From positions 1 to 64,000 of the forward strand of contig JAVTVY010025079.1 of NCBI GenBank assembly GCA_036873755.1: DNA of 64,000 bases. The letters run 5' to 3'. Positions within the stretch are counted from its first letter, which is position 1. Every line of letters starts with the position of its first letter. This document shows positions 2,075-63,559 of the stretch, one piece after another. Position numbers and translations under genes: made by a program. The stretch is from Hanleya hanleyi. Taxonomy: Eukaryota; Mollusca; Polyplacophora; Lepidopleurida; Hanleyidae. The notes under the pieces are model-generated. The model searched no databases and was not told the origin of the DNA. It was given only the letters and a program-made list of their open reading frames with translations.

Positions 2075-5000
2075 GGTACAATTTGACATTCGACTTGACA
2101 TACATTCCGTGACACTGCTTTGACACTCTCCTAAACATACATTCCTCCCTAATACAGCTTTGACACTCGATTGCACGTACATTTTTCCCTAATACCGCTT
2201 TGACACTGCACTTCAGATATATTCCGTCCTAACAGTGCTTTGAAAGTCAACTTCAAGCACACTCATGCCTAACATCCAGCTTCAACATTACCCTAGTTAC
2301 GCTTTGGTGGAGAAATTATCTGACTTCTATAGCTGAACTGACCCAAACCCTGATAGTTATGAAGCATACCTAACCCTAAGTCCTAATCCCGCTTTGACAC
2401 TCGACCTGACATACATTCCTCCCGAACACCGCTTTGACATTCGACTCAACGTACATTTTTCCCTAACACTGCTTTGACACTGCACTTCTATAGCTGAAAT
2501 GACCCTAAACGTGATAGTTATGAAGCATACCTATCCCTAAGTCCTAATCCCGCTTTGACACTCGACCTGACATACATTCCTCCCTAACACTGCTTTGACA
2601 CTTGACTTGACGTACTCCTCCCTAACACCGCTTTGACACTCGACTTTACATACATTCCTCCCTAACACCGGTTGACACTGGACTTCACGTACAATGCAAC
2701 CCGAAGACTGCTTTGACATTCGACTCCACATACGTTTTTCCCTAACATCGCTTTGACACTGCACTTCAGATATATTCCTTCCTAACAGTGCTTTGAAAGT
2801 CAACTTCAAGCACACTCATGCTGAACGCCCAGCTTCGACATTACCCTAGTTACGCTTTGGTGGAGAAATTATTTGACTTCTATAGCTGAAATGACCCTAA
2901 ACCGGATAGTTATGAAGCATACCTAACCCTGAGTCCTAATACCGCTTTGACACTCAACATTACATACATTCCTCCCTAACACAGCTTTGACACTCGACTT
3001 CACATACATTCCTCCCTAACACAGCTTTGACAGTCGACTTCACATACATTCCTACCTAACACCGCTTTGACATTCAACTTCAAATACATTCCTCCCTAAC
3101 ACCACTTTGACACTCGACTTCACATACATTCCTCCCTAACACCGCTTTGCCACTCGACTTGACATACATTCCTCCCTAACACTGGTTGACACTCGACTTG
3201 ACGTACATTCCTCCCTAACATCGCTTTGACACTCGATTTGACATACATTCCTCCCTAACACCGCTTTGACACTCGACTTGACGTACATTCCTCCCTAACA
3301 CCGCTTTGACACTCGACTTCACATACATTCCTCCCTAGCACCGCTTTGACACTTGACTCCACATACATTTCTCCCTAATAACAATTTGACATTCGACTTG
3401 ACATACATTCCGTGACACTGCTTTGACACTCACCTAAACATACATTCCTCCCTAATACAGCTTTGACACTCGATTGCACGTACATTTTTCCCTAATACCG
3501 CTTTGACACTGCACTTCAGATATATTCCTTCCTAACAGTGCTTTGAAAGTCAACTTCAAGCACACTCATGCTGAACGCCCAGCTTCGACATTACCCTAGT
3601 TACGCTTTGGTGGAGAAATTATCTGACTTCTATAGCTGAAATGACCCTAAACCTGATAGTTATGAAGCATACCTAACCCTAAGTCCTAATACCGCTTTGA
3701 CACTCAACATTACATACATTCCTCCCTAACACCGGACGTACATTCCTCCCTAACAGCGCTTTGACAGTCGACTTCATGTACATTACTCCCTCACTCCGCT
3801 TTCACACTCGACTTCACATACATTCATCCCGAACACCGCTTTGACATTCGACTCAACGTACATTTTTCCCTAACACTGCTTTGACACTGCACTTCTATAG
3901 CTGAAATGACCCTAAACGTGATAGTTATGAAGCATACCTAACCCTAATTCCTAATACCGCTTTGACACTCAACATTACATACATTCCTCCCTAACATCGC
4001 TTTGACACTCGACTTCACATACATTCCTCCCTAACACTGCTTTGACAGTCAACTTCACATACATTCCTCCCTAACACTGCTTTGACATTCAACTTCAAAT
4101 ACGTTCCTCCCTAACACCACTTTGACACTCGACTTCACATACATTCCTCCCTAACACCGCTTTGCCACTCGACGTGACATACATTCCTCCCTAACACTGC
4201 TTTGACATTCAACTTCAAATACGTTCCTCCCTAACACCACTTTGACACTCGACTTCACATATATTCCTCCCTAACACCGCTTTGCCACTCGACGTGACAT
4301 ACATTCCTCCCTAACGCTGGTTGACACTCGACTTCACGTACATTCTTCCCTGACACCGCTTTGACACTCGATTTGACGTACATTCCTCCCTAACACCGCT
4401 TTGACACTCGACTTGACGTACATTCCTCCCTAACACCGCTTTGACACTCGACTTCACATACATTCCTCCCTAACACCGCTTTGACACTTGACTCCACGTA
4501 CATTCCTCCCTAACAACAATTTGACATTCGACTTGACATACATTCCGTGACACTGCTTTGACACTCACCTAAACATACATTCCTCCCTAATACAGCTTTG
4601 ACACTCGATTGCACGTACATTTTTCCCTAATACCGCTTTGACACTGCACTTCAGATATATTCCTTCCTAACAGTGCTTTGAAAGTCAACTTCAAGCACAC
4701 TCATGCCTAACACCCAGCTTCGACATTACCCTAGTTACGCTTTGGTGGAGAAATTATCTGACTTCTATAGCTGAACTGACCCTAAACCTGATAGTTATGA
4801 AGCATACCTAACCCTAAGTCCTAATCCCGCTTTGACACTCGACCTGACATACATTCCTCCCTAACACCGCTTTGACACTCGACTTCACATACATTCCTCC
4901 CTAACACTGCTTTGACAGTCTTCTTCACATACATTCCTCCCTAACACCGCTTTGACATTCGACTTCAAATACATTCCTCCCTAACACCGCTTTGACACTC

Positions 5001-5157
5001 GACTTCACGTACATTCCTCCCTAACACCGCTTTGCCACTCGACTTCACATACATTCCCCCCTAACACTGGTTGACACTCGACTTCACATACATTCCTCCC
5101 TAACACCGCTTTGACACTCGACTTGACATACATTCCTCCCTAACACTGGTTGACACT
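2075..5157 (+). repeat. 3-kb minisatellite of ~40-bp units
   Basis: About 75 units, each containing CCTCCCTAACACCGCTTTG followed by ACACTCGACTTCACATACATT-like sequence. Several non-canonical blocks recur within the array, for example TATAGCTGAAATGACCC with GATAGTTATGAAGCATACC near 2330, 2490, 2880, 3630, 3900 and 4770. The array therefore has higher-order structure from segmental duplication. The open frame at 2537-2815 (-) only reads the units. Confidence 0.95.
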
Positions 5158-6110
5158 GCCAAACGCCGTAACGCCGTTTCTATGAAGAGATACATTACCG
5201 CAGTAGTATAGGCCGACAGGCAAAGTGATTTACCACTCTCAGCCCGACCACTGACCCCTTATGGAAATGTTTCAAACGCCGCTAAAAGACACTCTTCGCC
5301 AAATTCGTGATCCTTACAAGGAAGATGCACCAAAATTACCAATACAAAACACAGCATCAAACAGACCAGATCCTTCGAAAATATGTTCCCTGAAATATTC
5401 GGGTCATTCCGGATGGCTTAAAGATTTATGACTTGAAACCGCCAACAAACACTCCACAGAAATGGAGTACTGATCAGGAGACATTCTCGGATTTAAGACC
5501 TGGTGACAGGGGGACGCACCGCCCCCTCCCCCTACTCCTTGCCTCCGCACTGGAGGATGTGTTCGGGTAATGATAACATTTGCAGAGAATCGGCCTATTT
5601 ATATAACAATAAATATTTTTACAACTAATCTTTACATAATTTGTGACGAGACGTATTTTCCACAAAATACTTAAGTTTTAGAACAAGCAGCTGAACTCGC
5701 GGATCAGTACACAGGCTCTGCTTTACTTTCCAAGGTCTCGCATGCATGCAGATTAAGAGATAGAATAGCGACCAAAGAAACTATCCAAGTAGCTGAACTG
5801 ACGGATCGCTGAACACAGGCTCTGCTTTACTTTCCAATTAAGTAAAACAATTGAGCCTAAACTTGCCATACACATTGTCCATCATTTCACGATGGAGCCT
5901 GGGATGTTTATGAATTGGTACACAACTGGAGTGGATGAAGCATGGCAAGGAAAGAATAATACATATCGGAAGGAAATACCAGGCGAGCTCTTTGGTAGCC
6001 TTGCTGTATATGTAGGCCTACATTTTTCAATCGATGTCAAATCCTCCTACATATATGTATGTAACATTGACACATTTTGTGTCTAAAAAAAATTAACAAA
6101 GAGTACGGTC
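5158..6110. other. Unassigned spacer with a ~49-bp direct repeat
   Basis: No coding region is recognised. A ~49-bp block containing GTAGCTGAACTGACGG and CAGGCTCTGCTTTACTTTCC is present near 5686-5734 and again near 5792-5840. The 64-codon frame at 5892-6086 has no recognisable motif. Confidence 0.5.
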
Positions 6111-11505: not shown

Positions 11506-13168
11506 ATGGTGTTCTATTTGGGCCAAGTTTGCGTCGCGTGGCGACTTTTAGAAACTCGCCACTCGCCACGCGCCGTGGACCTCTCCGGCGCGCGGCGACT
11601 GGCGACTTTCTGCTATCTCTTAACCTGCAAAAACTCGCCAGTCGCCACCCGCCGTAAAACACGGCGAGTTTCGCTCTATCTCTTAACCTGGAAAAACTCG
11701 CCGCGCGCCACTCGCCGGATGAACCACGGCGCGCGGCGACTGGCGACTTTTGACTTCTGGAATTCTCAGGACTTTTTCTCAAGTGCGCATGCCCGGGGAG
11801 CATCAATTATCGGAATATTTTGTTCGAAACATGCTGTCATTTAATTTAATTTTAAATCTCTTCCTCGTGCATAAATATACATAATTTCTAATGAATGAAC
11901 TCTCCAGCTACATCTGATGCTATGTGACTAATTTTGAAGATGTAAGCTATCTGTAATAATTAATATAGTTGTTTTTTGAAACAAGTTCTTTTTAATGCAG
12001 TACGCATATAGGGCAATTCAATTTTGTCAAATGTGCAGATATTTTTTTTATTAAAATACTCGTTATCCGTTTCTGTGCAGAACTTGCATACTCGCGTTAT
12101 TATCTGCTGGTATATTTTAAAAAGTTAACACCAAGACAACATTTTCAATCGCTTTTTTTCATTCGTTTTATATAAGTGCCTATATATATTTATAAAACAG
12201 CATATCGTTTCAATTCAGAATGAATCGCCTTGAAATTGTTCCTTATTTAAGATACAATAAAGCACTCGACGCGGGAATTTTGTTTTACAAGATAAAAGCA
12301 ACGTCAACTAATATGCTGTATGAAATATTAAGAAAGCGAATAGAGCGTCATCGTCATATTGATTAAAAAAGTAAGAAATAATGCTAACATTTTCTCTGGA
12401 TGATTGAATTTCTCTCTTCGTAAGTTTTATGTGAAAAACGGGCGATATCTTTGTATAAGAGATCCTTTATTGCTGTTTTAATCCATAGAGCGGCTCTTTG
12501 TTGGGTTGCTTTGTCCTGTATCACAAACCCTACAAACTATCAAGACCCTATTTTTAAAGATGAAAAGACGTATTTCTTTCAACAGTTTCCATATTTTGTT
12601 TACTTCCTCAAATTCTATGAGATCGCGACTGTGATTTATGATATTGCAACTGTATAATTGATGCTCCTCGGGCATGCGCACTTGAGAAAAAGTCCTGAGA
12701 ATTCCAGAAGTCAAAAGTCGCCAGTCGCCGCGCGCCGTGGTTTGTCCGGCGAGTGGCGCGCGGCGAGTTTTTCCAGGTTAAGAGATAGAGCGAAACTCGC
12801 CGTGTTTTACGGCGCGTGGCGACTGGCGAGTTTTTGCAGGTTAAGAGATAGCAGAAAGTCGCCAGTCGCCGCGCGCCGGAGAGGTCCACGGCGCGTGGCG
12901 AGTGGCGAGTTTCACTACAGTCAAAAGTCGCCAGTCGCCGTGCGCCATGGTTCATCCGGCGAGTGGCGCGCGGCGAGTTTTTCCGGGTTAAGAGATAGAG
13001 CGAAACTCGCCGTGTTTTACGGCGGGTGGCGACTGGCGAGTTTTTGCAGGTTAAGAGATAGCAGAAAGTCGCCAGTCGCCGCGCGCCGGAGAGGTTCACG
13101 GCGCGTGGCGAGTAGCGAGTTTCTAAAAGTCGCCACGCGACGCGAACTTGGCCCAAATAGAACACCAT
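11506..13168. mobile_element. Foldback (FB-type) transposable element 1
   Basis: The inverted termini read ATGGTGTTCTATTTGGGCC at the left end and its complement at the right. Arms 11506-11815 and 12656-13168 are GC-rich and made of short GGCGACTGGCGAGTTTTT-type units that can pair along their length. Inner arm ends share TTCTGGAATTCTCAGGAC and GTGCGCATGCCC. The centre (11816-12655) is AT-rich with no recognised gene. Long GC-rich frames in the arms (for example 12608-13177) arise from the repeats. The terminal motif is shared with the element at 30.66-33.47 kb. No target duplication was seen. Confidence 0.85.
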
Positions 13169-13375: not shown

Positions 13376-13961
13376 CAACCATGTTAAAATGATTAAAACT
13401 AAACATCATCATATCACTTTACGATTCATATGTCATTTTATGACTGTGAACATTAAACTTTTGCTGAAAATATCACAATAATATTGTGTAGAATATCAAA
13501 CTGTGTATCGTGGACTATATCTCGTGGCCATGGTGAAATACTGACTAGAAAAGTGAAACCAATATCACTCATTAAAACGTGGCCATGGTAAAATACTGAC
13601 TAGAAAAAAATTAAACTGATATATTTCCCGGAAATGAAATATCACGAATGTAGTATAGCCTACAAAGCTTTCACATATACAGCTTTCAGTTTATTGCCCG
13701 TTTTGCACTTCGCCAACGGTAGACCGAGGCTGCCGATGCTTCATTATCAAATCCACACGCATCGAGCAGAAGGAAAAAAACACACGAGTTAGTGTTAATG
13801 ATTAATTGCATAGTAAATTCGCCTGCTTTATCCGTCGATCCATCGAGGTTTGAGTCTCATGAACAGAGCTACAGCTCTTTCACAATCCACTTTATGACCA
13901 TAAAACGGAAAGTCGTGGTAAACCCAGTGTTGAGCTAACTGACGCGTCACTACTGGAACGG
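13376..13961. other. No gene recognised
   Basis: Unique-looking AT-rich sequence. There is a ~50-bp imperfect direct repeat containing CGTGGCCATGGTGAAATACTG (13522) and CGTGGCCATGGTAAAATACTG (13569). No coding region is supported. Confidence 0.45.
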
Positions 13962-13970
13962 AGCATGCTA

Positions 13971-14387
13971 CAACCTGTAACCATTTCGGTCATCTATACG
14001 CGGTAAGACTGACCCTGGGATCGTGTGTATCCATTTCAGACTACTCAATACCACGTGACTTCGTCAGCCAATCCGCTAAAGTCTACCGACGTAACCCCAA
14101 CGTAACCCGCCATTTTCGAGTCATGTGGTGATCTACTTGTTCAAAATTACAGATCTACCACACCTCTTGGATGATACGAAATTTATTCATACATATATAT
14201 CTTGTAAGCCCAGGCAATATCTGTTTCCGAAGCATGTATGAAAACCTGTAATTTATCAGAGTTTTCGAGTCTGTTCTCCGCCGGATGAAGGCCGAACAGA
14301 ATCCGGTAAAACACCGGATATCGCTCCGCGATAATGGAGACACACGATTCGCAAGCCATCTTATGGATGGCGAAGTGTACGCAAATG
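13971..14387 (-). mobile_element. Element X copy 1: 417-bp ORF-carrying transposon, 9-bp TSD
   Basis: Bounded by CAACCTGTAACC at the left and ACGCAAATG at the right. It is flanked on both sides by the 9-bp direct repeat AGCATGCTA (13962-13970 and 14388-14396). Its reverse complement matches 17963-18411, which has a different 9-bp duplication, so both ends are defined independently twice. Nine-base duplications are typical of Mutator-like elements (established knowledge), but the terminal inverted repeat is minimal (CA...TG). It contains a conserved reading frame and, on the opposite side, a CACGTGAC plus CCAATC block. Confidence 0.85.
14183..14359 (-). pseudogene. Conserved reading frame in element X, copy 1 (frameshifted)
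   Basis: Starts at the ATG at 14359, and the frame is open further upstream to the element end. The first 41 codons align with the plus-strand frame at 17991. They differ at only 8 nucleotides, 7 of them third codon positions; 5 are synonymous and 3 conservative (L/F, D/E, K/N). This shows recent descent from a sequence selected as protein. About codon 42 this copy has one extra base relative to copy 2, after which the shared KQILPGL motif lies in another frame, so copy 1 is probably broken. No family is recognised and no domain can be named. Confidence 0.6.
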
Positions 14388-14417
14388 AGCATGCTAAAGA
14401 GCCTGGAGACTGACATT

Positions 14418-14590
14418 TTTTATTTCTTTCTTTTCCCTTTTGCTTTTTTTGTTTTCTCTGTTTTTGTTTTGTTTTTGTTTTTGTTTTTTTTTGCTTTTTC
14501 TTCTGTTTTTTTTGGCGCGTCCAAGGGGGGGTCGTTCGCACCTGACGACCCCCCCCCCCCTAACGACGCCCCTGGGAGTCAAAAGATTGA
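14418..14590. repeat. T-rich and G/C-homopolymer low-complexity tract
   Basis: A TTTTTG-type tract of about 90 bp is followed by GGGGGGGTCGTT, a C run and ACGACGCCCCTGGGA. The lysine-rich (14155-14541, -) and phenylalanine-rich (14334-14630, +) frames are artefacts of this tract. Confidence 0.75.
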
Positions 14591-15200
14591 AAACGTAGAC
14601 GTTATTTGTCCCTTTAAGATCAGAAGGTAAATAATATATGGTGCAATCATGGAGGTCTCTTTTACCTTCATGGTGCAATGAATCGGTCGAGTTTTTTTTT
14701 ATCTTTTCTGGCTGTTAGAAAATTACACACGTTTCCTAGGGGAGATCATGGCTATTATAGTAGTTGTTACACATTGGTTATTTTTATGCCTCTGTAGGTC
14801 GGAACAAAAGGGTTAGCGCTCTCATCTCCATGGTGAAGAAAGTAAATTACTTATTAACGACGTAGAAAACGCCCCTGTTACTTCAGTAGTTCAGGATATA
14901 GTCGATCAAAAAAAATCTCTAACAACTAAAAATATGTAACAAGTTTTCAGCCGCCGTGGTCAATCTGGTTGTGATTATTTTCAGAAAACAATTCCTTTTG
15001 ATTAGGTATGCATTGAATATCATCCAGTGCACCAAACATTAACAGCATTGAACACGTTGGTCATATAAGGAAGATTGAGACCAAAGAGCACCACAGGCGC
15101 GGCGGAAGCAATTCAACATTGGGAGAGGGAAATTTTGAAAATTTAGCCTCCATTTTACGCACTCTGGCACATGTTCAGGAGAGATCTTAGGCTGAGAAAA
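14591..15200. other. No gene recognised
   Basis: Unique-looking sequence without a coding or repeat signal I can support. Confidence 0.45.
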
Positions 15201-15204
15201 TGTT

Positions 15205-15440
15205 CACAAATAACAAGCAAGGTTTTCAAAACCCCATTTTCTGCTCTCCAAACACCATTTTTGGGGTACGGAAACACTTGTGTTTTAAACACTTGTGTTT
15301 TAAAACCCCGCAATGTGTGTTCGAAACACTATATTTGAGGCACAGAAACGCCGATACAAAGGTTTCAAACACTGGTGTTTTAAAACCCCATAACGCAGAT
15401 TTGGGCGTTTATTCACCCATTCCCAAGTTTGATCTATCAA
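15205..15440. repeat. GTGTTTTAAAACCCC-type self-complementary repeats
   Basis: Several copies of AAACACTTGTGTTTTAAA and TTTTAAAACCCC, each nearly its own reverse complement. They resemble in style the block at 16.03-16.32 kb, and the two may be ends of one decayed element. The 100-codon frame at 15200-15502 reads through the repeats and has no motif. Confidence 0.55.
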
Positions 15441-16030
15441 AAATGATATACTGGTACTGTAAAATGCTCAAACTATCACAAGAAATTAGCACAACCGGAT
15501 AATCTTCAACGAAGTGATACCGGCAATTAATTGTGTAATTTACCGTATTTATTTTCTTGAAATTCCCATCAATCTAGTCTCTGGGAAGTCGGGTTTTTCG
15601 AAATAACACTAACGGCATTTCGAGATAAGGGACATAAATCTGTGGCATTATTCAAAGTGCACCTAAAAGGGATGCTGGGGCCCTATCTGTCCTGTAGGAT
15701 GGGGACGTTGTGCTAAAGTACCCGATGCACAATGTTTTAGAGAATCCCCACTATCATCCGAAGATCACTGAGTGATTTATTTGATGGAAGACTTATTTGA
15801 AGTTTTCAATAAAAGTACCCGCACTAAGTAAGGATTACATTACCCTTTTCCATGTTTGGCATAACATCCAGAAAGTGATTTTCTTTTGAAAATCCATTAT
15901 TCTTTCTGACTACCGGTACATGCTGTTACGCTTGTTCGCCGTGTCATCTGTGCTATTCATATAGTACCATTATGACATTTTGAACGACCTCATTTTTTTG
16001 TATCTCGAACTACCAAAATTGCATACTATC
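15441..16030. other. No gene recognised
   Basis: No coding or repeat feature can be supported in this stretch. Confidence 0.45.
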
Positions 16031-16326
16031 CTGCTGCAAGTCTGGTTTTCGAAAACCTGGTTGCAACTAGGCTGCAACGGGAAGTGGGGTTTGGAAAACC
16101 TGTGATCTGGGGTATGGAATAACTGCTTCTTGGTTCTGGAAAAACTGCAAGTCTGGTTTTCGAAAACCTGGTTGCAACTGGGCTGCAACAGGAAGTGAGG
16201 TTTGGAAAACCCATGATGAGGTCTCTCAAAAAACCGAGACCTCTGGTTTTCAAAAAACCACTATCCGTTGCAGCCCAGTTGCAACCACTTTTAGTGTTTC
16301 GAAAAACATTCTTTTTACAGTGTATA
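16031..16326. repeat. GGTTTTCGAAAACC tandem repeat ending in an ACAGTGTA terminus
   Basis: Two ~115-bp units (about 16034-16148 and 16149-16260), each with GGTTTTCGAAAACC, GGTTGCAACTGGGCTGCAAC and a GGTTTGGAAAACC block, then a reversed partial unit. It ends CTTTTTACAGTGTA, the same kind of end as at 35.41-35.43 kb. This is probably a non-autonomous DNA element. Confidence 0.6.
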
Positions 16327-16439
16327 TTCGCGCTTATTCTTATAAGACGTGTACAATTCTAGGTTATATGAATCAAAATACTGTTCTTAACATACGTTGT
16401 TTTAATTCACGATTGACCATTTTCAGACGTTTTCTGTTC

Positions 16440-17420
16440 TAAAACTGTGCAGTCCTTTATGTCGACTCGACTCCGGCTCGGCCGATCAGCCGGCAGAGTC
16501 GGCGACCAAACTCTAGCGCTGTACGGTCTTTTGACTTATTATTTCGAGCAAAAGTCAAGATTTCTTGCTGATTCCGAATATTTCAAAATATTTGATATTT
16601 CATTATCACTTTTCGCGTATTTAGCCAGTTTTAGACACACGTTACCTCGCCTGTTTCCAGAGTTTGAAAGACGGCTCGTAGAAATAAGTTTTAGACTTAC
16701 TCGTGTCAACAAAATTTTGATTTATAATCGAAATTATATTTATTTTTCATTGTAAATTCAACAAATCATACAGTTTCAATCAGAACCGAGTTGGTCCATC
16801 CATGAGACCGTGTTTGTTATATCATCGACTGACTGCGGTCGCCATTTTAAATCCGACTACGGCGAGTTCGATCGTACCGTACCTCTAAGTTCACTCTAGA
16901 GTCGAGTACATTGTAAGTGACGTCACAGATCCCCCGACCATGCGGCTTCACACAGTCGAACGTTTTAGACGCGTCGTGTCAGCAAAGCTTGAACAACACA
17001 CAATTATTGAAATTTGTAATCGAAATTATATTCATTTTTCATTATAGATTCAACAATTTTATAATTTTATTTAGAACCGAGCGGAGTGTGCCCATTGATG
17101 GGGTCTCATTCCTTTGGAGATGTCACCAGCCGACTGCGGTCGCCATTTTAAACTACTACTTCGCTCAGCGAGTGGGTTACTCAGGCCTCACTCGGGTCTA
17201 ACTCGTCAATGACGTCACGGACCAGTCGACTGATATTCCCGCTCACCCGGATCAGTTGGAGTAAGTCGTGTGAGCCGGTCGAACACGCTGGTTAGGCCTT
17301 ACCCGGGTAACTCGATAACGATGTCACGGACCAGCTGAACGGCATTTCCCCACTACTCGGATCAGTTAGACCACCACATGTAAGCCCTGTCGAACACGCT
17401 CGAGGGCTTCAAATAGCCTA
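16440..17420 (-). repeat. Tandem units and right inverted arm matching 10.8 kb
   Basis: Two ~300-bp units share ACTGCGGTCGCCATTTTAAA (16836 and 17134) and TAATCGAAATTATATT (16725 and 17020). They are followed by two ~115-bp units with CACGGACCAG and GTCGAACACGCT. The part 17236-17291 is inverted relative to 10785-10840. Frames here (16447-16755, 16917-17201) have no recognised motif. Confidence 0.6.
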
Positions 17421-17529
17421 ATCCAAACATAATGACGTATCTGATATACGTCATCTCCAATATCACAGGACAACCCCGCCTTCGGGAACCTTTGAAATTC
17501 ATTCAGAACTTATCGGAGAACTGTGAACC

Positions 17530-17953
17530 AGGTAGGCTACAGTATATTCACTGTATAACTGTGAACATGCACAGTATATTTATTGCATAAATGTGAATCA
17601 TGTACAGTATATATTTACTGTGGAAACTGTGAACCACTACAGTAAACGGTGAACCAGAGAGAGAGAGAGAATTAGGGTTTAATGTCGTGTTCAGCAACAT
17701 TTCAGCTATATAGCGTATATTTGCTGTATAACAGTAACCATGTACATTATATTCACTATATAGCTGTGAACCATGTATATACAATATATTCACTGTATAA
17801 CTGTGAACCCTGTATATACAATATATTCACTGTATAACTGTGAACTATCTGTACAGTATATTCACTGTAAGGTGAACCATGTACAGTATATTTACTGTGG
17901 ACCATGAACAGTATACTCATTGTATAACTGTAAACCATGTACAATATATTCTC
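17530..17953 (+). repeat. Minisatellite of ~33-bp CTGTATAACTGTGAACC units, left part
   Basis: Units read CAGTATATTCACTGTATAAC and TGTGAACCATGTA. A GAGAGAGAGAG...TTTAATGTCG block at 17659-17715, resembling the SINE at 54.9 kb, interrupts it. The array resumes at 18412 after element X copy 2. Confidence 0.85.
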
Positions 17954-17962
17954 TGTATAACT

Positions 17963-18411
17963 CATTTGCGTACATTTCGCCATCCATAAGATGGCTTGCG
18001 AATCGTGTGTCTCCATTATTGCGGAGCGATATCCGGTACTTTATCGGATTCTGTTCGGCCTTCATCCGGCGGACAACAGACTCGAGAAATCTGATAAATT
18101 GCAGGTTTTCATACCACTTCTGAAACAAATATTACCTGGGCTTAAAAAATATATAGGGATGTGTAACTTTCGTATCATCCAAGAGGTGTGGTGGATCTGA
18201 AATTTTGAACAAGTAGTTCATAACATGATTCGAAAATGGCGAGTTACGTTGGGGTTACGTCGGTAGACTTTATCTGATTGGCTGACGAAGTCACGTGGTA
18301 TTGATTTATGGAAATTCCCTCTGGCAGTTGCCGAAAGTAGGCTGAACATGGATACACACGATCCCAGGGTCAGTCTTACCGCGTATAGATGGCCGAAATG
18401 GTTACAGGTTG
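17963..18411 (+). mobile_element. Element X copy 2: 449-bp ORF-carrying transposon, 9-bp TSD
   Basis: Runs from CATTTGCGTAC to GGTTACAGGTTG. It is inserted in the 33-bp minisatellite and flanked by the 9-bp repeat TGTATAACT (17954-17962 and 18412-18420). That sequence is also part of the minisatellite unit, so this duplication alone would be weak evidence. Copy 1 at a different site, with a different 9-mer, confirms the boundaries. It is longer than copy 1 mainly through ~35 bp near 18311-18348. The region 18275-18300 holds ATTGGCTGACG and CACGTG, CCAAT-box-like and E-box-like motifs, outside the reading frame. Confidence 0.85.
17991..18200 (+). CDS. Conserved small reading frame of element X, 69 codons, unknown function
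   Basis: Chosen start is the ATG in AAGATGGC (17991), which is conserved in both copies; the frame is also open upstream to the element boundary. Against the minus-strand copy at 14.18-14.36 kb, 7 of 8 differences in the first 41 codons are at third positions, a coding signature seen directly. The predicted peptide has a cysteine pair near its start (residues 3 and 6), a mixed hydrophobic/charged middle, and KQILPGL near residue 46. It may be a captured host exon, with an intron junction lost, or an element-encoded protein. No family is recognised. AAGATGGC also matches a YY1-type site over a start codon, which may be coincidence. Confidence 0.5.
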   Translation: MACESCVSIIAERYPVLYRILFGLHPADNRLEKSDKLQVFIPLLKQILPGLKKYIGMCNFRIIQEVWWI

Positions 18412-18610
18412 TGTATAACTGTGATCCATGCACAGTATATTCACTGTATAACTTTGAACTACGTACAATGTATTCACTGTAGAACTATCAATCATTACAG
18501 TATATTCTCTGTATAACTATTACAAAATTTACGGTATATTCTCTGTTTTACTGTGAATCTTGCACATTATATTCGCTCTTTACTGTGAATCGTGTACAGT
18601 ACATATATAT
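18412..18610 (+). repeat. 33-bp minisatellite, right part
   Basis: Continuation of the array interrupted at 17953, with more diverged CAGTATATTC and CTGTATAAC units. Confidence 0.8.
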
Positions 18611-20728: not shown

Positions 20729-20912
20729 AAACAATACAGCTATCTTTTCTTTATCAGGTGTGTTTGTCTTACTCAAATACCAAGAAGTATATTTAATCAA
20801 GGTTTGCAATTATCGTATACGATCACAGTGAGCTGATCATCGTGTTAAAATTAAAATTCCATCTATTCTACAAGGCTCATAAAATGTGACATTATAGGTT
20901 GTGTGGTCGTGA

Positions 20913-23886
20913 GATTTTTAGCCCACCACCACCAGATGGTGGGCTATTCAAATCGCTTTTCGTCCGTGGTGTACCGTCCGTGGTCCGTCCGTCATACCGT
21001 CCGTCAGTCCCTCCGTCCGTAAACAATTCTTGTTATCACGATTTCTCAGGAACTACTTTATGGATCTTTCTCAAATTTGGTACACAGGTTCCCCTTGGGG
21101 TCTAGTTGTGCAAGATACCTTTTATGGTCCGATTCGAAAATCCAATATGGCCACCAGGCAGCCATCTTGGATTTCCCCCATGAAACCTTGTTATCGCGAT
21201 TTCTCAGGAACTTCTTCATGGATCTTTCTCAAATTTGGTACACAGGTTCCCCTTGGGGTCTAGTTGTGCCAGATACCTTTTCTGGTCCGATTCGAAAATC
21301 CAAAATGGCCACCAGGCAGCCATCTTGGATTTCCCCATGAAACCTTGTTATCGCGATTTCTCAGGAACTACTGCATGGATCTTTCTCAAATTTGGTGCAC
21401 AGGTTCCCCTTGGGGTCTAGTTGTGCAAGATACCCTTTTTGGTCCGATTTGAAAATCCAATATGGCCACCAGGCAGCCATCTTAGATTTCTCTATGAAAC
21501 CTTGTTATCGTGATTTCTCAGGAACTACTGCATGGATCTTTCTCAAATTTGTTACACAGGTTCCCTTTCGGGTCTAGTTGTGCAAGATACCTTTTCTGGT
21601 CCGATTCGAAAATCCAATATGGCCACCAGGCAGCCATCTTGGATTTCCCCATGAAACCCTGTTATCGCGATTTCTCGATCAGGAACTACTGCATGGGTCT
21701 TTCTCAAATTTGGTACACAGGTTCCCCTTGGGGTCTAGTTGTGCAAGATACCTTTTCTGGTCCGATTCGAAAATCCAATAAGGCCACCAGGCAGCCATCT
21801 TGGATTTCCCCATGAAACCTTGTTATCGCGATTTCTCAGGAACTACTGCATGGATCTTTCTCAAATTTGGTACACAGGTTCCCCTTGGGGTCTAGTTGTG
21901 CAGGATACCTTTTTCGGTCCGAATCGAAAATCCAATATGGCCATAAGGCAGCCATCTTGGATTTCCCCATGAAACCTTGTTATCGCGATTTCTCAGGAAC
22001 TACTGCATGGATCTTTCTCGAATTTGGTACACAGGTTCCCCTTGGGGTCTAGTTGTGCAAGATACCTTTTTTGGTCCGATTCGAAAATCCAATATGGCCA
22101 CCAGGCAGCCATATTGGATTTCCCCATGAACATTTATCGTCATTTCTCAGGAAGTACTTCATGGATCTTTCTCAAATTTGGTACACAGGTTCCCCTTGGT
22201 GTCTAGTTGTGCAAGATAACTTTCCTGGTCCGATTTGAAAATCCAGTATGGCCACCAGGCAGCCATCTTGGATTTCCCCATGAAACTTTATCGTCATTTC
22301 TCAGGAACTACTGCATGGATCTTTCTCAAATTTGGTACACAGGTTCCCCTTAGGGTCTCGATATGCAAGATGCCTTTTTCGGTCCGAAACGAAAATCCAA
22401 TATGGTCACCAGGGGGCCATCTTAGACTTCCCCATGAGATTTTGTTATCATGATTTCTCAGGAAGTACTGCCTGGATCTTCCTCAAATTTGATACACAGG
22501 TTCCCCTTGTGGTCCAGTTGTGCAAGATACCTTTTCTGGTCCGATTCCAAAATCCAATATGTCCATCAAGCGGCCATCTTGGATTACCCCATGAAACATT
22601 GTTATTGTGATTTCTCAGGAACTACTGCATGGATCTTTGTTAAATTTGGTACACAGGTTCTCCTTGTCGTCTAGTTGTGCAAGATACCTTTTACGGTCTT
22701 CGAAAATCCAATATGGCCAACAGGCTGCCATCTTGGATTTTCCCATGCAACTTTGTTATCGTGATTTCTCAGGAAGTACTGCATGGATCTTTCTCAAATT
22801 TGGTACACAGGTTCCCTTTATGGTCTAGTTGTGCAAGATACCCTTTTCGGTCCGAATCGAAAATCCAATATGGCCACAAGGCCGCCATCTTGAATTCCCC
22901 CTTGAAACATTGTTATCGTGAATTCTCAGGAAATATTTCATGGATATTTCTGAATTAGTAGTGCAAGATACCTTTTTGGCCCAATTCGAAAATCCAAGTT
23001 ACGCTTCAAATTAATACGGTATTCTCGAGTTGTATCATTGCATCACAAGAGTCGGCAGATCAAACGGTGGGGCATATTCTATATACTGACTATAGAGAAT
23101 ATCCATACCTTCCCCCTCCATATCAAGGAGTTCAAATAATTCGGAATTAAAATGTATTTCTTCAAATTTTAATTCAGTTTTCTTCAGTCCATGCAGTAGC
23201 AAGTGAACTGCTCCACCCTTTCTTCTGCCGGCGGGTCGGCTACATGAAGGGACGTCACTCTTGTGACTCAATGTCACAACTCGACAACTGTAGACTACTG
23301 GATGTTTCGATCCAAAGGAGATAATCAAGATTCAGGCACTTTCGAAGTTTCAACATTACTGCGCGGACCCTTCAGTATTGTACCATCTTACTATTTTCGA
23401 GCATGGTATCTTTAAAGAGATATCTCAAACTAGCTCAGTAAACAGAACAGAATTAGCATTCGTTCCTAATTATAAAATCTTAAGTAGCTCATGCCAAAGT
23501 GTCAAAAAGATTGGTCCTCGCTTCCAGTACCCAATGATGACACGTGCAAAAAAATAAAAAAAATAAAAATACTACAAAACAAAGGCGAAGGATCCTATGT
23601 GTGTACATTCACTTTCAGACTAACTTTGCTCATTTCTCTTGTATTATAACAATCGACATAAGTACAGTTTCTAGAAATCTTGAAACTTCTGAAACTTAGA
23701 TTATATCTTGGTGTTTTTCAGTGTCCCTTTTCCGATCTTTTTCGCTCAGATTCGAAATTCTGCAAACAAAATTACAAATCAATCGTTTGTTCTTAGTAAC
23801 AATGGACAAAAATATCCTCTAGTCATTAGCTTACAATTATCGGACAATGGTGGGCGCCAAGATCCTTCAGGATCTCTCGTTATATA
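20913..23886 (+). mobile_element. Hairpin-ended element with ~157-bp tandem core, copy 1
   Basis: The 5' end is ATTTTTAGCCCACC. AGCCCACCA pairs with TGGTGGGCT 8 nt later, making a stem-loop. A GTCCGTCC-rich lead is followed by about 12 tandem units and then a unique 3' part (22985-23886). The 3' end has the small hairpin AGATCC-TTCA-GGATCT about 7 bases before homology with copy 2 (27.08-29.27 kb) stops at CTCTCGTT. Terminal hairpins, an internal ~150-bp array and no target duplication fit non-autonomous Helentron-type elements and the molluscan 'pearl' elements (established families). The assignment is inference. No protein is encoded. Confidence 0.7.
21010..22980 (+). repeat. Tandem array, ~12 units of ~157 bp
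   Basis: Each unit reads GATTTCTCAGGAACTACTGC, GGATCTTTCTCAAATTTGG, TACACAGGTTCCCCTTGGGG, GTTGTGCAAGATACC and CAATATGGCCACCAGG. The landmark TTTGGTACACAGG recurs about every 157-158 bp from 21077. Overlapping 60-100-codon frames are by-products of the unit being open in two frames. Confidence 0.95.
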
Positions 23887-24086
23887 TACATTTACAACAA
23901 TTTTCACATTGCTTCTATTTATTTATTTATTTAGTTTGTCTGTTCACAAAAATGCGTCCATCACTTTATTAGCTATAGATTATAAGCTCTCATTTCGAGG
24001 ACGTTAACGCCGAGAGCTGTAGATTGAAACACGTCGTAAACTTGCGATGAGACGGCCACGGGTCCACGTCACAACTGTTTAAGGCG
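23887..24086. other. Short spacer, no gene recognised
   Basis: AT-rich sequence between the hairpin-ended element and the first MITE. The frame at 23708-24007 crosses the element end and is not credible. Confidence 0.4.
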
Positions 24087-24091
24087 TGGTA

Positions 24092-24277
24092 CCCACGAGC
24101 CAGTCTTCCTTGACAAGTGAGACTGAATTTATGGAAGTCTGTAGTGACCATTAGCTTGCTCACAAGCTATTTATTATAAACGGTGACTGTATACCAGTCA
24201 ACGAATGATCGTAACAGTCTTCCACAAGTTTGGCCTCACTTGTCAAGGAAAACTGGCTCGTGTGTACCAGGTCTAAA
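24092..24277. mobile_element. MITE, ~185 bp, family with copy at 26.86 kb
   Basis: Inverted ends: GAGCCAGTCTTCCTTGACAA at the left, TTGTCAAGGAAAACTGGCTC at the right, with inner arms GGAAGTCTGTAGTGACCAT and ACAGTCTTCC. The second copy at 26859-27024 shares the same arrangement. No autonomous partner is visible. Confidence 0.75.
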
Positions 24278-24376
24278 GGAAATTCTTACATTGATTGTCT
24301 GAATAAAGAACTGTCCATTGTTAGAAACCATTTTGTGCGCACTCACCTCTTCAAAAACTGTTCTTCCATGTTCACT

Positions 24377-24486
24377 CAATCTGATTAAAACTCAGACTTT
24401 ATAACCGCTCCTATGTCTGATATGTCGCTAATTAGCGACATGTCAGATATAGGAGCGGTTATTAAGTCTGAGTTTTAATCAGATTG
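24377..24486. mobile_element. Near-perfect 110-bp hairpin MITE with 9-bp TSD
   Basis: The arms are complementary over 55 bp each with about 3 mismatches and meet at GTCGCTAATTAGCGAC. The ends read CAATCTGATT and AATCAGATTG. It is flanked by ATGTTCACT at 24368-24376 and 24487-24495. A 9-bp duplication with long inverted repeats is the usual signature of Mutator-like MITEs (established). The near-perfect arms suggest recent origin. Confidence 0.9.
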
Positions 24487-24495
24487 ATGTTCACT

Positions 24496-25400
24496 CTATC
24501 ATCCTTTTGACGCTTCTTATACCCATTTTCCCGCCAAAATGAGCAACCGCGTATTGCCGCCCTGTCTCGTGAAACTGGACGACACGAGATTTTTTCGACC
24601 GCGGCGTGACTTATCTCACTTATCACAACCACTCGGCATAGGCTAGTAGTATATGTAGGCTAACCTGATCTCGCCCATCACTGGTAGGAATCCATACTGG
24701 CATCCATGCAGGCAAAGTATTACGCCTTATCTCCGAGCAGCGCATGTCAGCAGTATGGCCGTTGCCGTGGTCGGCTTGAGATGCAAAGCCAGGAGAAACA
24801 CCTCAAATTAGACTGGATCCTTCGGAGGCAGACTCAAGGGAATATTCATTTCATTTGGATATACCCTCCTGATAAGGGAGAATACCACGAGGACTATGTG
24901 AGCAAAAATACATCCTATAATATGTGGTGTGCCTCACGTGCGGCGGATTTCCTACACCATTAATGCGGGAGGTCATATGACTTCGACGGAATAGGTCGAG
25001 CGGTCGCGAATGTTATCACAACTTGCGTTTAAACATTATCCACGAGGTCAACCTAAAAATAGACCACGTGACTTCGTCCAAGGACCATAACTCTTTCTGT
25101 GTTAATGCTATTTTGTCACCGAACCCCGTATCAATTCATACGCTCATTGGTCGATTACACGGCTTGAAATTGCCATATCACGACAAACGGGTTTGAAATA
25201 ATTCACACACGGGTTTGAAATAGTTTGTAACCTGTTGCCCTTGACTACCGATCAAAAATGTCAACAAATTCAGCTGAACGAAGGTTTGTCGTACTTTTAT
25301 CTCTACTGTGGGCTTTTTCAGCTTTCTTACAATGATGATTGTCTTTCAATTCGAGAATATACGAGTGATATGAAAAAGAATTAATTATTTGGTGACAAAA
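24496..25400. other. No gene recognised
   Basis: An 85-codon frame (24706-24963) has no motif I recognise and no second copy in the window. It remains an unsupported candidate. Confidence 0.4.
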
Positions 25401-25402
25401 TC

Positions 25403-25585
25403 GTTGTCTAGATTTGAGTCAGGGTTGATCGAGTTTTGTGACCTGCCTGCGCGGCTCAGGGTTGAAATTTCACAGGCAGGTCACAAAACTCGATCATTTC
25501 AACCATTCGCCGCTGCGCGGCTCAGGGTTGAAATTTCACAGGCAGGTCACAAAACTCGATCAACCCTTCCTCAAACCTAGATAAC
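25403..25585. mobile_element. MITE with 47-bp terminal inverted repeats
   Basis: Left arm 25403-25449 and right arm 25539-25585 are reverse complements with about 4 mismatches; both contain GATCGAGTTTTGTGACCTGC on one strand. The interior repeats GCGCGGCTCAGGGTTGAAAT twice, so the right arm has been duplicated. Superfamily not determined. Confidence 0.85.
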
Positions 25586-26715
25586 TCATAATCTACATCG
25601 CCATGAAAAAAATGCATTCCTTCTAAAATATTTTTTATACTTGGACACGCCAAGTATCGTAGTGTGTTAAAGGACACCTAAGCGTCCATTGGTGTTCAAG
25701 CAAAATTGAACTCCCCCCCCCCCACCAAAAAAAAATTCCCCGGATCTTCGTTAAACCAAGGCAAATGTGAGCGTAGAAATGGACTTGGTGTAATGATGAT
25801 TGGAAGTCCCGAAGAACTGATTTCAATGTGCGATTTTATGTTGTTCATTTGCAAAATGTTCTAAACTGATAGTCACATGTTAAACGCTTATAACCGTATG
25901 GTATGTCGCGTGCAAGCAAGAGATTAATATTGGTAGAATGGGAAACGTCTTTATTTATATCCACAGGTAGTCAGGCTCAGGTGTTGATTGCTAGCGTGAA
26001 ATTATAGAGAAGCGACGTTGGTGAAATTATTAGGAGGGTTGACATGTAATAGTACGCCACAAGGCCTTTAGAAGACCATAATTTTGTGATTTCACAAACC
26101 TTTTGCCGCTTTCATCTGTATCACAATCCGCTTTTGATGTCGGAACACATAAGAGATTTATATACCTGGTGTTAATTGCATATGGTGATGGGTACAGGTG
26201 CACGAAGCCGGTCCAATCAGAAGTGAACTTGGACCGTGTCGAGTTACAAGTCAGTGGTATGTGTGGATCCTATACAAGAGATCGTTGTTCACATTGTGTG
26301 CATATTCTATTTCCTAATTGATTGGACGTGATCACAATTTCTGACTGGCAACTTGTAATTTCACATTGTTTCATATCCAATATATCTGGTTTACCTACGG
26401 TAGGTTTTATTAGAGCTTCGAAAAGTAGGACGGTGTTTCACATACCGGAATACTGACAGTACAGCCTGCTACCCTCCTCTGTGCTTCCGTACACGGGATA
26501 TCGGAATATTATAGGTCATACACAGTACAGTTTTATGGCAGATATGAGAAGATTTAATATAAATTGTGTTCTACATTTTGTTCAAGGTGATGTTATTTGA
26601 CGAATTAAGAATAGTGGTATTTACCATCAATTATCATGCGCAACAATCATCAGCCATCTTATGGTATGGCATTTAGTAGATGGGGTCGACATCTGTCTCT
26701 CTCACCCAGTAAATC
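25586..26715. other. No gene recognised
   Basis: A C run and an A run lie at 25711-25737. The frames at 25635-25826 and 26103-26321 have no motifs. Confidence 0.45.
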
Positions 26716-26730
26716 TCTCCGACGTTACAT

Positions 26731-26731
<1 letters not shown>

Positions 26732-26777
<46 letters not shown>
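26732..26777. repeat. (CT)n microsatellite
   Basis: An uninterrupted run of CT dinucleotides with a single CG near its end. Confidence 0.97.
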
Positions 26778-26780
<3 letters not shown>

Positions 26781-26858
26781 CTGATCAACACATATTAATG
26801 CCAGCAAAAGTGGCCTTCATAACATGTAGGCCTACCCTTAAAATTCAATAATCTAAGA

Positions 26859-27024
26859 CCGTGGACATACGACCAAGTTTTCCTTCACAAGTGAAACCAA
26901 ATATATGGAAGATTGTAGTTGCCATCATTTCTTACTATCTTGTATTATACAAGATGACTGTAGCAGATCTTCCATCAATTTTGTCTCATTTGTCAAGGAA
27001 AGCTTGGTCGTGTGTATAACAGTC
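26859..27024. mobile_element. MITE, second copy of the 24.1-kb family
   Basis: Left end CGACCAAGTTTTCCTTCACA, right end TGTCAAGGAAAGCTTGGTCG; inner arms read GGAAGATTGTAGTTGCCATC and GACTGTAGCAGATCTTCC. Same plan as 24092-24277, with substantial divergence. Confidence 0.75.
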
Positions 27025-27073
27025 GACACTTTTCAATAACTTTCGTTAGAACCATGATAATTAACATGTACGT

Positions 27074-29268
27074 ATTTTTAGCCCAGCATCACCAGATGGT
27101 GGGCTGTTCAAATCACTTTTCGTCCGTGGTCCGTCGTCCGTCCGTCAGTCCGTCGTCCGTCCATCAGTCCGTCCGTAAACAATTCTTGTTACCGCGATTT
27201 CTCAGGAACTACTTGATGGATCTTTCTCAAATTTGGTACACAGGTTCCCCTTGGGGTCTAGTTGTGCAAGATACCTTTTTTGGTCCGATTTGAAATCCAA
27301 TATGGCCACAAGGCGGCCATGTTGGATTTCCCCATGAAACTTTGTTACCGCGATTTCTCAGGAACTACTTCATGGATCTTTTTCAGATTTGGTACACAGG
27401 TTCCCCTTGGGGTCTAGTTGTGCAAGATACCTTTTTTGGTCCGATTCGTAAATCCAATATGGCCACAAGGCGGCCATCTTGGATTTCCCCATGAAACTTT
27501 GTTATCGCGATTTCTCAGGAAGTACTGCATGGATCTTTCTCAAATTTGATACACAGGTTCCCCTTGGGGTCTAGTTGTGCAAGATACCTTTTCTGGTCCG
27601 ATTTGAAAACCCAATATGGCCACCAGGTAGCCATCTTTGATTTCCCCATGAAACAAAGTTATCGTCATTCTCAGGAAGTACTACGTGGATCTTTCTCAAA
27701 TTTGGTACACAGTTTTCCCTTGGGGTCTAGTTGTGCAAGACACCTCTTTCGGTCCGATTTGAAAATCCAATATGGCCACCAGGCGGCCATCTTAGTTTTC
27801 CCCATGGAACTTTATCGCGATTTCTCAGGAAGTACTGCATGGATCTTTCTCAAATTTGGTACACAGGTTTCCCCTGGGGTCTAGTTGTGCAAGATACCTT
27901 TTCTGGTCCGATTCGAAAATTCAATATGGCCACCAGGCAGCCATCTTGGATTTCCTCATGAAACATTGTTACCGTCATTTCTCAGGAAGTACTACATGGA
28001 TCTTTCTCAAATTTGGTACACAGTTTTCCCTTGGGGTCTAGTTGTGCAAGATACCTTTTTCGGTCCGATTTGAAAATCCAATATGGCCACCAGGCAGCCA
28101 TCTTAGTTTTCCCCATGAAACTTTATCGTGATTTCTCAGGAAGTACTTCATGGATCTCTCCCAAATTTGGTACACAGGTTCCTCTTGTGGTCTAGTTGTG
28201 CAAGATACCTTTTTTGGTCCGATTCGAAAATCCAATATGGCCACCAGGCTGCCATTTTGAATTTCCCCATAAAATTTTGTTATCTTGAATTCTCAGGAAC
28301 TGATGCATGGATCTTTGTCAAATTTGGTACACAGGTTTCTCTTGTGGTCTAGTTGTGCAAGGTAGCTTTTCTGGTCCGATTCCAAAATCCAATTTTTTCG
28401 GTCCGATTCGAAAATCCAATATAGCCACCAGGCGGCCATTTTGGATTCCCCCATGAAATTTTATCGTGATTTCTCAGAAATTGCTTCATAGATCTTTCTG
28501 AAATTTGGTATACAGGTTCCCCTTGTGGTCCAGTTGTGCAAAATACCTTTTTGGACCGATTCGAAAATCCAAGTTACGCTTCAAATTAATACTGTATTCC
28601 CTAGTTGTGACCTTGCATCACAAGAGTCGGCTTATCAAACGATGGGGCATATTCTATATATTGACTATAGAGAATATCCATACTTTCACCTTCTATATCA
28701 AGGAGTTCAAATGATTCCGAATTAAAATGTATTTCTTCAAATTTTAAAGCAGTTTACTTTAGTCTATGCCGTTGCAAGTGAACTGCCCCACCGTTTTGTC
28801 TGCCGAAGGGACGTCACTCTTGTGAAACAACGTCACAACTCGACAACTGTAAAATACTGCGCGTTTCGATCCAAGGGAGATAATCAGGGCTCATGCCAAA
28901 GTGTCAAAGAGATTAGTCTTCGCTACCAGTACCCAATGATGACAACAACAAAAAATACTACAAAACGAAGACGAAGGACCCCCCGGACATTCACTTTCAG
29001 ACTAACTTTGCTCATTTCAATTGTACTATAACAACCGACATCAAGTACAGTTTCTAGAAATCTTGAAACTCCTGAACCTTAGATAGATAATATCTTGGTG
29101 TTTTCCAGTGTCCCTTTTTCGATCTTTTTCGCTCAAATTCGAAATTCTGCAAACAAAATTACAAATCAATCGTTTGTTCTTAGTAACAATGGACAAAAAG
29201 ATCCTCTTGTCATTAGCTTACAATTATCAGACAATGGTGGGCGCCAAGATCCTTCAGGATCTCTCGTT
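27074..29268 (+). mobile_element. Hairpin-ended element with ~157-bp tandem core, copy 2
   Basis: Homologous to 20.91-23.89 kb from TTTTTAGCCCA to CTCTCGTT, with about 9 tandem units (27180-28565). The 5' stem has one mismatch (AGCCCAGCA against TGGTGGGCT); the 3' hairpin AGATCCTTCAGGATCT is intact. A ~130-bp stretch present in copy 1 near 23340-23470 is missing here. Different flanks mark the true ends. Confidence 0.7.
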
Positions 29269-30655: not shown

Positions 30656-30661
30656 CGGATG

Positions 30662-33468: not shown

Positions 33469-33527
33469 CGGATGGCTAGCATTTCCAAGTCCTCCCATCA
33501 CTTCGTGGCGGAGGACAAAAATAGATT

Positions 33528-37523: not shown

Positions 37524-37567
37524 AATGAACATGTGTCCCTCATCAGTCCATATGTATTGGTCGACTG

Positions 37568-38594
37568 ATGAACATGTCGTGTACGTGTACGTTCTGTCAG
37601 AGAACCTTCTCTCGTCGCGATAGTATGCTCAGGCACATTCAACGCAAACACAACCAAGAGACACAACCGAGTCCCGCCATAGGTCCAACAAGAGCAGTAG
37701 AGCATCCCTATACGATGAGGGTGAGCGGCCATACGGCATGTGGAAAGACGTCCTGGGTGATGAAGTTCTTAGAGGAAGGTGTGGCAACCCCAGCTCCGAC
37801 ACGTGTTGTTTGGTGTTATAGCCAATGGCAACCCGCCTACGAAACTACAAGGTCACAGGTTGGAGCTTCGTCCCAGGGATTCCCCACAACATAAACGTAC
37901 CGTATTACTTTGACCCCGAGCAGACCAACGTGGTAGTGCTAGATGATCTGATGAGTGCGGCCAAGGACAATTCACACGTCGCCGACTTGTTTACTAAAGG
38001 ATCCCATCATCGGAATCTGTCCATCATCTATTTGACCCAGAATCTCTTTCCTCAAGGGAAAGAGATATTGCCTTGAACTGCCAATACTTTGTGTTGTTCT
38101 CCAATCCCATTGACAGAGCACAAATCCGTGCGTTTGGTAGTCGAATTTATCCTCAGAACATCGACCATTTCATGCAGGAGTTTCAAGGAGCGACAAGTCG
38201 TCCGTACGGCTACCTGTTCGTAGATTTAAAAGCCCATACCCCCGAAGATCGTCGGCTGACGACCCACCTGTTACCCGGCGAGGGATCAGCAGCTACCAAT
38301 ACTCACGCTGAAGCGATCGAGGACGCGGGACAGGATAACTTACAACAGACGTACACCGAAATGCGGCCCCGCATCAGGAAAACAGCCATGGCGATCTATG
38401 AACAGTATACCTTACTACCGCTTGAAATGAAAGGCGACCCCACGCACAGGTCCATCATGAAGACCAAGCGTCACTTGGAAGAGGATATGGGGTTACCACC
38501 CACTGAGGCCCTGGAAAATGCGATCAGAATGCGCAAACAACTGTTTCAGGACATGCTGCCCGAACAATATCCAGGCCTGCCCGACGACGAGTAG
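37568..38594 (+). pseudogene. Zinc-finger/A32-type DNA-packaging ATPase of a virus-like element, two frameshifts
   Basis: About 340 residues in three frames: 37568-~37845, ~37830-~38070 and ~38065-38594. Residues 7-28 form a classical C2H2 finger (C-x2-C-x12-H-x4-H). The P-loop is at 37727-37753 (G-x4-GKTS), Walker B at 37930-37950 (four hydrophobics then DD), then a strand ending TQN (about 38034-38043), a SNPID...IYP block and PYGYLFVDLK (about 38199-38240). This order matches FtsK/HerA-class packaging ATPases of Polintons and adintovirus-like elements (family knowledge), which drive genome DNA into capsids. Breaks lie near 37840 and 38068, with no internal stops in the remaining frames. 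ATG at 37568 or 37574 could be the start. It is followed by an AATAAA and the shared 3' module. An ancient functional ancestor is likely; this copy is inactive unless the shifts are sequence errors. Confidence 0.8.
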
Positions 38595-40372: not shown

Positions 40373-40960
40373 ATTTAATATGCAAATGTTCGAATCAGGG
40401 GAGATAACCCGGAATTTGCCAAAATCACAAAAGTCCATCAAGAGTTACCTCCCTTTTGCGGGGAGCTCTCTTGAGTTGGTGGCGCCCCCTGTCGGATGCT
40501 TCACGGGAGTCAAGAGTTATCCCTCAAGTTTAAGTGCAAAGAGGGCAATACGACCTTTTTTCACCTTATACTACTACTGTTGTTTGTGATAATTGACGAT
40601 GATCAATATTCTTTCCGGACGATGGCTGTCTGACGTATATCCAATCGGACAAATCCAATCCCCCCATCACACTTATCATGCTGTCTTGCTGCAACTGTTC
40701 ATGGAAAGACCATGGAGATCTGCATGGTATATTACATATATAAGGGTTCATAACTGGTCTTAAATAGCAACGAGTCCGCACAACGCAGGGCAATTCCGCA
40801 CAAGATGTCGAATAAAATGAAATTCTGAGTCATTGTGAAAAGAATAAATAGTAAGCAATTAATGTGAGAGACTGAGGAAGATATCGTGCTGTACAAACTC
40901 CTCCCACCTCATACCATTACTATGGAAAATAACATGGGCAGGTGAGCCTCATACTCCGGT
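40373..40960. other. No gene; fragment of a GAGTTACCTCCC repeat
   Basis: 40440-40530 (AAGAGTTACCTCCC ... CTTGAGTTGGTGGCGCC) is the approximate reverse complement of 55190-55255, so it is a dispersed short element. The rest is not recognised. Confidence 0.5.
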
Positions 40961-40963
40961 AAG

Positions 40964-62526: not shown

Positions 62527-62691
62527 CTCCCCAATGTTACATCATACCCACGCTGGGGGAGCCGCGTTGGGTATGTTTACAATTCGAGAAGACTCTGTCA
62601 TATTCGTTCTTGCCCGTTAGATGTATTCTCGGCTGCTCTTATCCAATCAGAAGCCGTCTTTTCAGAAAGTTCCATCTTTGCTCGGTGTGAC

Positions 62692-63264: not shown

Positions 63265-63310
63265 GTTGACGGTTGAACGTCGACTGTGCGTGTTTTGGAA
63301 ATACACTTGC

Positions 63311-63317
63311 TTTTATA
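63311..63317 (-). promoter_or_regulatory. TATA box of the zinc-finger gene
   Basis: TATAAAA on the minus strand (context GTCTATAAAAGC), 47 bp upstream of the ATG at 63264. Transcription would start ~20 bp before the start codon, giving a very short leader, a layout common in compact viral genes. Confidence 0.7.
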
Positions 63318-63321
63318 GACA

Positions 63322-63532: not shown

Positions 63533-63559
63533 TTGTCGATCATCACTGGACGGACATCA

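Follow-up and report, generated by a model that had tools for sequence, protein, structure and literature searches.

The analysed stretch, called here the window, comprises 64,000 nucleotides of the polyplacophoran mollusc Hanleya hanleyi (assembly GCA_036873755.1, contig JAVTVY010025079.1, positions 1 to 64,000 of the forward strand) and carries two copies of a short repeat, which we term element X. A reading made from the sequence alone (hereafter, the sequence-only reading) had placed here two inverted copies with different, exact 9-bp target-site duplications (TSDs), and this was confirmed. Copy 1, a 417-bp member of subfamily A, occupies positions 13971..14387 of the forward strand (CAACCTGTAACC...TGTACGCAAATG), is matched end to end at no fewer than 37 other genomic places, and is flanked by AGCATGCTA at 13962..13970 and 14388..14396. 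Copy 2, a 449-bp member of subfamily B, lies at 17963..18411 on the reverse strand between two occurrences of TGTATAACT (17954..17962 and 18412..18420). Since the two copies differ in duplication, subfamily and orientation, they are independent insertions. The left duplication of copy 2 is part of a tandem array which itself contains TGTATAACT, making this duplication weaker evidence on its own; the point is settled by other copies, as an exact 9- or 10-bp duplication surrounds 76 of the 97 copies described below.

Each copy contains an open reading frame and a pair of degenerate terminal inverted repeats. The frame of copy 1 (58 amino acids, 14183..14359, reverse strand) is shared with that of copy 2 over its first 41 codons only; the frame of copy 2 (69 amino acids plus stop, 17991..18200, forward strand), for which no selection could be shown, has its codons 1 to about 9 inside a terminal repeat. 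In frame orientation, nearly all copies start with CATTTGCG and finish with AGGTTG. The terminal repeats of copy 1, with limits carried over from alignments of one B copy and of subfamily consensuses, extend for about 64 bp at the CAACC end (13971..14034, forward strand) and about 54 bp at the CATTTGCG end (14334..14387, reverse strand), and those of copy 2, likewise carried over, are at 17963..18016 (CATTTGCG end, forward) and 18348..18411 (CAACC end, reverse). The CACGTG and CCAAT-like motifs mentioned in the sequence-only reading can be read in both copies, at 14052..14057 (CACGTG, forward strand) and 14068-14072 (CCAAT) in copy 1, and at 18277-18281 (ATTGG) and 18292-18297 (CACGTG) on the forward strand in copy 2, and they turned out to be general, CACGTG being found in 85 of the 97 copies and ATTGG, the complement of CCAAT, in 94.

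Genomic copies were collected, as the sequence-only reading had proposed, from the assembly of 2,481,469,871 bases in 52,793 contigs. One 28-bp end of element X has 4,547 exact matches (2,219 and 2,328) in these 2.48 Gb, while its reversed control has none; it has no exact match in viral contigs. When copy 1 served as a DNA query, 40 of the 2,326 candidates from a first look were scored; of the 41 rows obtained, counting that of the window itself, 38 span the element end to end. We extracted 97 full-length or near-full-length copies, leaving out partial and nested ones, from the window, from 39 loci of this DNA search, from 40 among the 150 loci matched by the 69-residue protein and from 20 of 39 further loci matched by an old copy; some loci duplicate each other (e.g., L009-L011, L070/L072 and probably L088/L089). 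Most copies measure 417-458 bp, and they form four subfamilies: A, which includes copy 1; B, which includes copy 2; Y, a young burst that includes copies of 100% identity; and OLD, the members of which are 94-97% identical to their own consensus. Pairs with 100% identity occur among L020, L024, L025 and L026, and element X has been recently active, in bursts. Beyond codon 41 the frame in Y and A differs from that in B, so that the newest copies were amplified without the 69-residue frame, and in OLD it stops at codon 50. Other forms exist as well: a 67-bp derivative, represented by L076:1-34 together with L112, retains no more than about 25 bases of one end and 31 of the other and lies between 9-bp repeats that differ by one mismatch; in L079, X is interrupted near its end, and at L065:1253-1956 a diverged relative of X lies in three pieces separated by unrelated DNA.

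Among the 97 copies, the TSD is an exact 9-mer in 41 and an exact 10-mer in 35, another 12 having duplications with at most two mismatches. In 37 non-redundant 9-bp sites, C (0.62) and A (0.59) are preferred before the duplication, and T (0.62), G (0.76) and A (0.54) after it; in 30 non-redundant 10-bp sites, the preferences are for C (0.50) and A (0.70) before and T (0.70) and G (0.53) after, the preference for a following A not being seen in these 30 sites (0.33). The favored target is thus palindromic, TCAN[TSD]NTGA for 9-bp and CAN[TSD]NTG for 10-bp duplications. At L064, moreover, a copy of X is nested in another X between two ATCCCCAAC repeats, and removal of the inner copy together with one repeat restores a continuous X, with 422 of 450 aligned columns identical. 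The duplications, the target preference and the restored L064 site are the signature of a transposase making a 9-10-bp staggered cut.

The terminal inverted repeats, about 54 and 64 bp long, begin with CA, finish with TG, and are clearest as TAAGA-TG...ATCGTGTGTMTCCAT. Degenerate as they are, they would rarely arise by chance: per 2000 Markov-randomised sequences, their score was reached by 8 for OLD, for which only the inner part is aligned and the outermost 24-33 or so bases are excluded, by 1 for Y and by 3 for B, and the score of one B copy was reached by 1 of 500 shuffles. The first 49 bp are identical across the OLD, Y and B consensuses. Short, with fixed ends, terminal inverted repeats, high copy number and no transposase gene, element X has the makeup of a miniature inverted-repeat transposable element (MITE).

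The sequence-only reading had gone further, proposing that X descends from a coding sequence that was under selection. Its comparison of the two copies is reproducible: over 41 codons they differ at eight sites, seven of them third positions, with five synonymous changes (codons 10, 16, 18, 32 and 37) and three replacing ones (L/F at 17, D/E at 28 and K/N at 33), and the quoted binomial chance of about 0.003 is correct (0.0026). The 41-codon stretch, however, stops exactly at a 1-bp indel that shifts the frame of copy 1 relative to copy 2, and was therefore chosen post hoc. For a broader test, we placed changes in codons 1-38 on a tree by parsimony and counted them separately on internal and terminal branches, the neutral expectation being a synonymous share of 23-32%, depending on transition and CpG bias. 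The 61 copies found by DNA similarity yielded 9 synonymous to 20 replacing changes on internal branches (9/29), and 26 synonymous, 65 replacing and 5 stop changes on terminal ones (26/96), i.e., the neutral ratio on both; OLD copies alone yielded 1 synonymous to 11 replacing changes on internal branches and 17 synonymous, 47 replacing and 2 stop changes on terminal branches. Fewer replacing changes than neutral are thus not seen in the DNA-found copies, and past codon 38-41 or so the frame varies among subfamilies, its length being 49, 58 or 69 residues. With its first nine or so codons overlapping the terminal inverted repeat and with no match to a Pfam family in the 69-residue peptide or homologous protein, the frame does not support descent from a selected coding sequence, and the striking third-position pattern of two copies largely fades once tens of copies are compared. 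The 58-69-residue frame is not needed in cis, since the youngest, identical copies carry a frame different from that of copy 2. We take it as an incidental open stretch beginning inside one terminal repeat, a decoy with no convincing sign of use.

Element X is therefore likely to be a non-autonomous cut-and-paste DNA transposon, a MITE of the Mutator-like element (MULE) superfamily, moved in trans, in which the 58-69-residue frame is incidental. The earlier suggestion of a mobile unit of Mutator type with duplications of about 9 bp is upheld by the 9-10-bp duplications, the inverted-repeat ends, the palindromic targets and the self-insertion. A MULE transposase encoded elsewhere would bind the terminal repeats, cut the target with a 9-10-bp stagger and insert X, with gap filling at the staggered cut presumably yielding the duplication. 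According to PMC6446971, the MULE superfamily has duplications of 8-11 bp, a range into which the exact 9- or 10-bp duplications of X fall, and some of its groups have short terminal repeats or none; those of mollusc MULE groups are given there as 48/296 bp or absent. MULE transposase domains are present in the genome, as 62 matches to the MULE transposase domain PF10551 were obtained among the best 150 of 175 candidates. Of the four matching loci that we inspected, L109 has a 500-residue frame flanked by inverted arrays of 15-bp repeats; in L108, an open stretch of 478 residues has similar arrays to either side and extends past one of them; L111 has a 422-residue frame with other inverted repeats; and L110 is a fragment without inverted repeats. 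All four lack X ends. The units of the 15-bp arrays in L108 and L109 are GACATTTCGGCAGGC and GACATTTCGGCACGC.

Several observations weigh against this reading, some concerning the superfamily and others, taken up further below, the frame. Nine of the 97 copies lack a duplication, although one end had been extrapolated past the match in L100-L102, which are among them, and the two terminal repeats match each other poorly, in contrast to long Mutator ends. A CATTTCGGC-type motif, considered as common to X ends and two of the MULE loci, was inconsistent between X copies and was not used: its run reaches 11 bp at the CAACC end of copy 2 (0.7% of random 35-mers reach 11), but only 9 and 5 bp at those of a different B copy (9 is reached by 8.6%). 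No transposase-bearing element with X ends was found in L108-L111, 4 of the 62 PF10551 matches, and the longer autonomous element sharing the ends, for which the sequence-only reading had advised looking, was not seen in the fetched loci and the window (331,605 bases). With no transposase partner identified, X could conceivably belong, as a non-autonomous element with 9-10-bp duplications, to a different superfamily of DNA transposons, e.g., Merlin- or P-like, and CA...TG termini occur also in hAT and P elements. Furthermore, X starts with CAT and CAA, a poor fit to arthropod MULEs, the termini of which, in PMC13359780, are mostly G/C-rich, with G/C conserved at terminal positions 1-3 in the majority. 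We nevertheless regard another superfamily as unlikely, as the duplications are 9 or 10 bp in near-equal parts rather than 8, which speaks against hAT membership, and as the superfamily described with 8-11 bp in PMC6446971 is MULE. That X is a short interspersed element (SINE) or other retroposon is extremely improbable: it is short, abundant and not obviously palindromic, but it has fixed ends, inverted-repeat termini, palindromic targets and duplications of 9 or 10 bp in most copies, where a SINE would have a pol III-type promoter or a relation to tRNA, 5S or 7SL RNA and variable duplications; the window has no tRNA gene, and a scan of its positions 13800-18600 gave no Rfam match inside X.

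As to the frame, X could instead be Pack-MULE-like, or a MITE with a small protein selected in its master copies. The seven of eight third-position differences between copies 1 and 2 are in line with this, and so is a comparison of the four subfamily consensuses along OLD-B, B-Y and Y-A, which gives 6 synonymous to 5 replacing changes in codons 1-38 (P 0.02-0.10, depending on the neutral model), although it overlaps the pair that prompted the coding idea. In 41 DNA-found copies, third-position changes are in mild excess in codons 1-41 (23 of 50), compared with 14 of 55 in codons 42-69 and, in the same phase further downstream, 40 of 98. Changes at CpG sites in codons 1-41 of 76 copies fall on third positions in 24 of 30 cases, while CpG bases are distributed 5/7/8 among the three codon positions; a few hot sites and a biased sample are the only candidate reasons that we can suggest. 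All 97 copies, some of them protein-found, have 16 synonymous, 27 replacing and 1 stop changes on internal branches (16/44) and 45, 84 and 5, respectively, on terminal branches (45/134), a synonymous share slightly above neutral, which is to be expected because about a third of these copies were found through the protein search. Of the available B copies, 11 belong to the 40 that are nearest by DNA and show 6 synonymous to 5 replacing changes, but 10 of these 11 came in through the protein search, which biases them; 16 of those 40 are absent from the protein-search list.

That search scored 150 of 11868 first-look candidates in the animal's own genome, and all 150 listed matches span the 69 residues at 90-100% identity, most of them without a stop, a sample biased, like the copies drawn from it, to conserved protein. 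Whole or partial X is present in every one of the 40 fetched loci. As the listed rows are taken up by X copies, a diverged parent gene may be hidden behind them, and a captured host exon is possible. In a protein collection of uncertain animal content, no homologue at E 1 or below was obtained by a search that needs shared 5-residue words. Set against the neutral ratio on internal and terminal branches of the 61 DNA-found copies, the subfamily-dependent frame length, the start within the terminal repeat and the lack of protein relatives, these observations leave the Pack-MULE-like or protein-coding explanation improbable. Still more doubtful is a narrower version, in which the 38-codon core, overlapping the transposase-binding repeat, would be a real peptide or first exon selected in the few master copies that seed bursts; the neutral ratio of the bulk would then reflect their dead offspring only. 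Should the residual between subfamilies hold when their number is increased, a MITE that encodes a peptide would deserve broader attention.

Element X is of a known kind, and the best label for it is a MITE bearing a Mutator-like signature. None of the listed paper titles on MITE, Mutator and mollusc subjects names its family, and a search of printed sequence for two 12-mers of its ends listed a single paper, on Vibrio secretion. With Mutator-like elements, including MULE-Mollusca and MULE-Cg in Table 1 of PMC6446971, it shares 9-10-bp duplications, inverted-repeat ends and the cut-and-paste signature, but no transposase can be recognised in it, its terminal repeats are degenerate, and no sequence link to a named MULE was shown. 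The many MITEs in bivalve genomes in PMC10294476 are likewise short, abundant and non-autonomous DNA elements; they stayed unclassified in that text, whereas the duplication and target signature of X points to one superfamily, so that an abundant, recently active repeat can be classed by mechanism where MITEs often stay unclassified. Pack-MULEs, with tomato examples in PMC3310237, resemble X as short, non-autonomous, MULE-like elements with an open frame, but in X no parent gene, protein relative or clear coding constraint was found.

Two other MITE families were seen as insertions in X copies (L059:1250-2085; L067:1311-1715; L068:457-508; L075:945-1001): M2, CATTCTCGTCTCGCG...GAGAATG, nested in X in L059, L068 and L075, and M3, CAACCACCTCG...AGGTTG, in L059 and L067. 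Both have CA...TG ends, with duplications of 9-10 bp in the three loci read closely (L059, L067 and L075), and it is a reasonable inference that X, M2 and M3 depend on a common or related transposase. The CCCCAAC site of X was used by four nested insertions, in L064, L067, L068 and L075.

Elsewhere in the window, inverted repeats at 37529-38594 and 62682-63910, 24 kb apart, contain frames with a single weak C2H2 zinc finger below the Pfam cut-off and look like two copies of another mobile element. A 253-residue frame at 47204-47965 on the reverse strand has no Pfam match above cut-off, and we take it to resemble retroelement pol with a repeated segment. Large imperfect palindromes, with arms of 77-260 bp that are 85-98% complementary, lie at 30661-33469 and 11506-13168, and long tandem arrays occupy positions 2095-5199 (unit of about 40 bp), 20889-28616 (about 157 bp) and 40914-41399 (about 27 bp).

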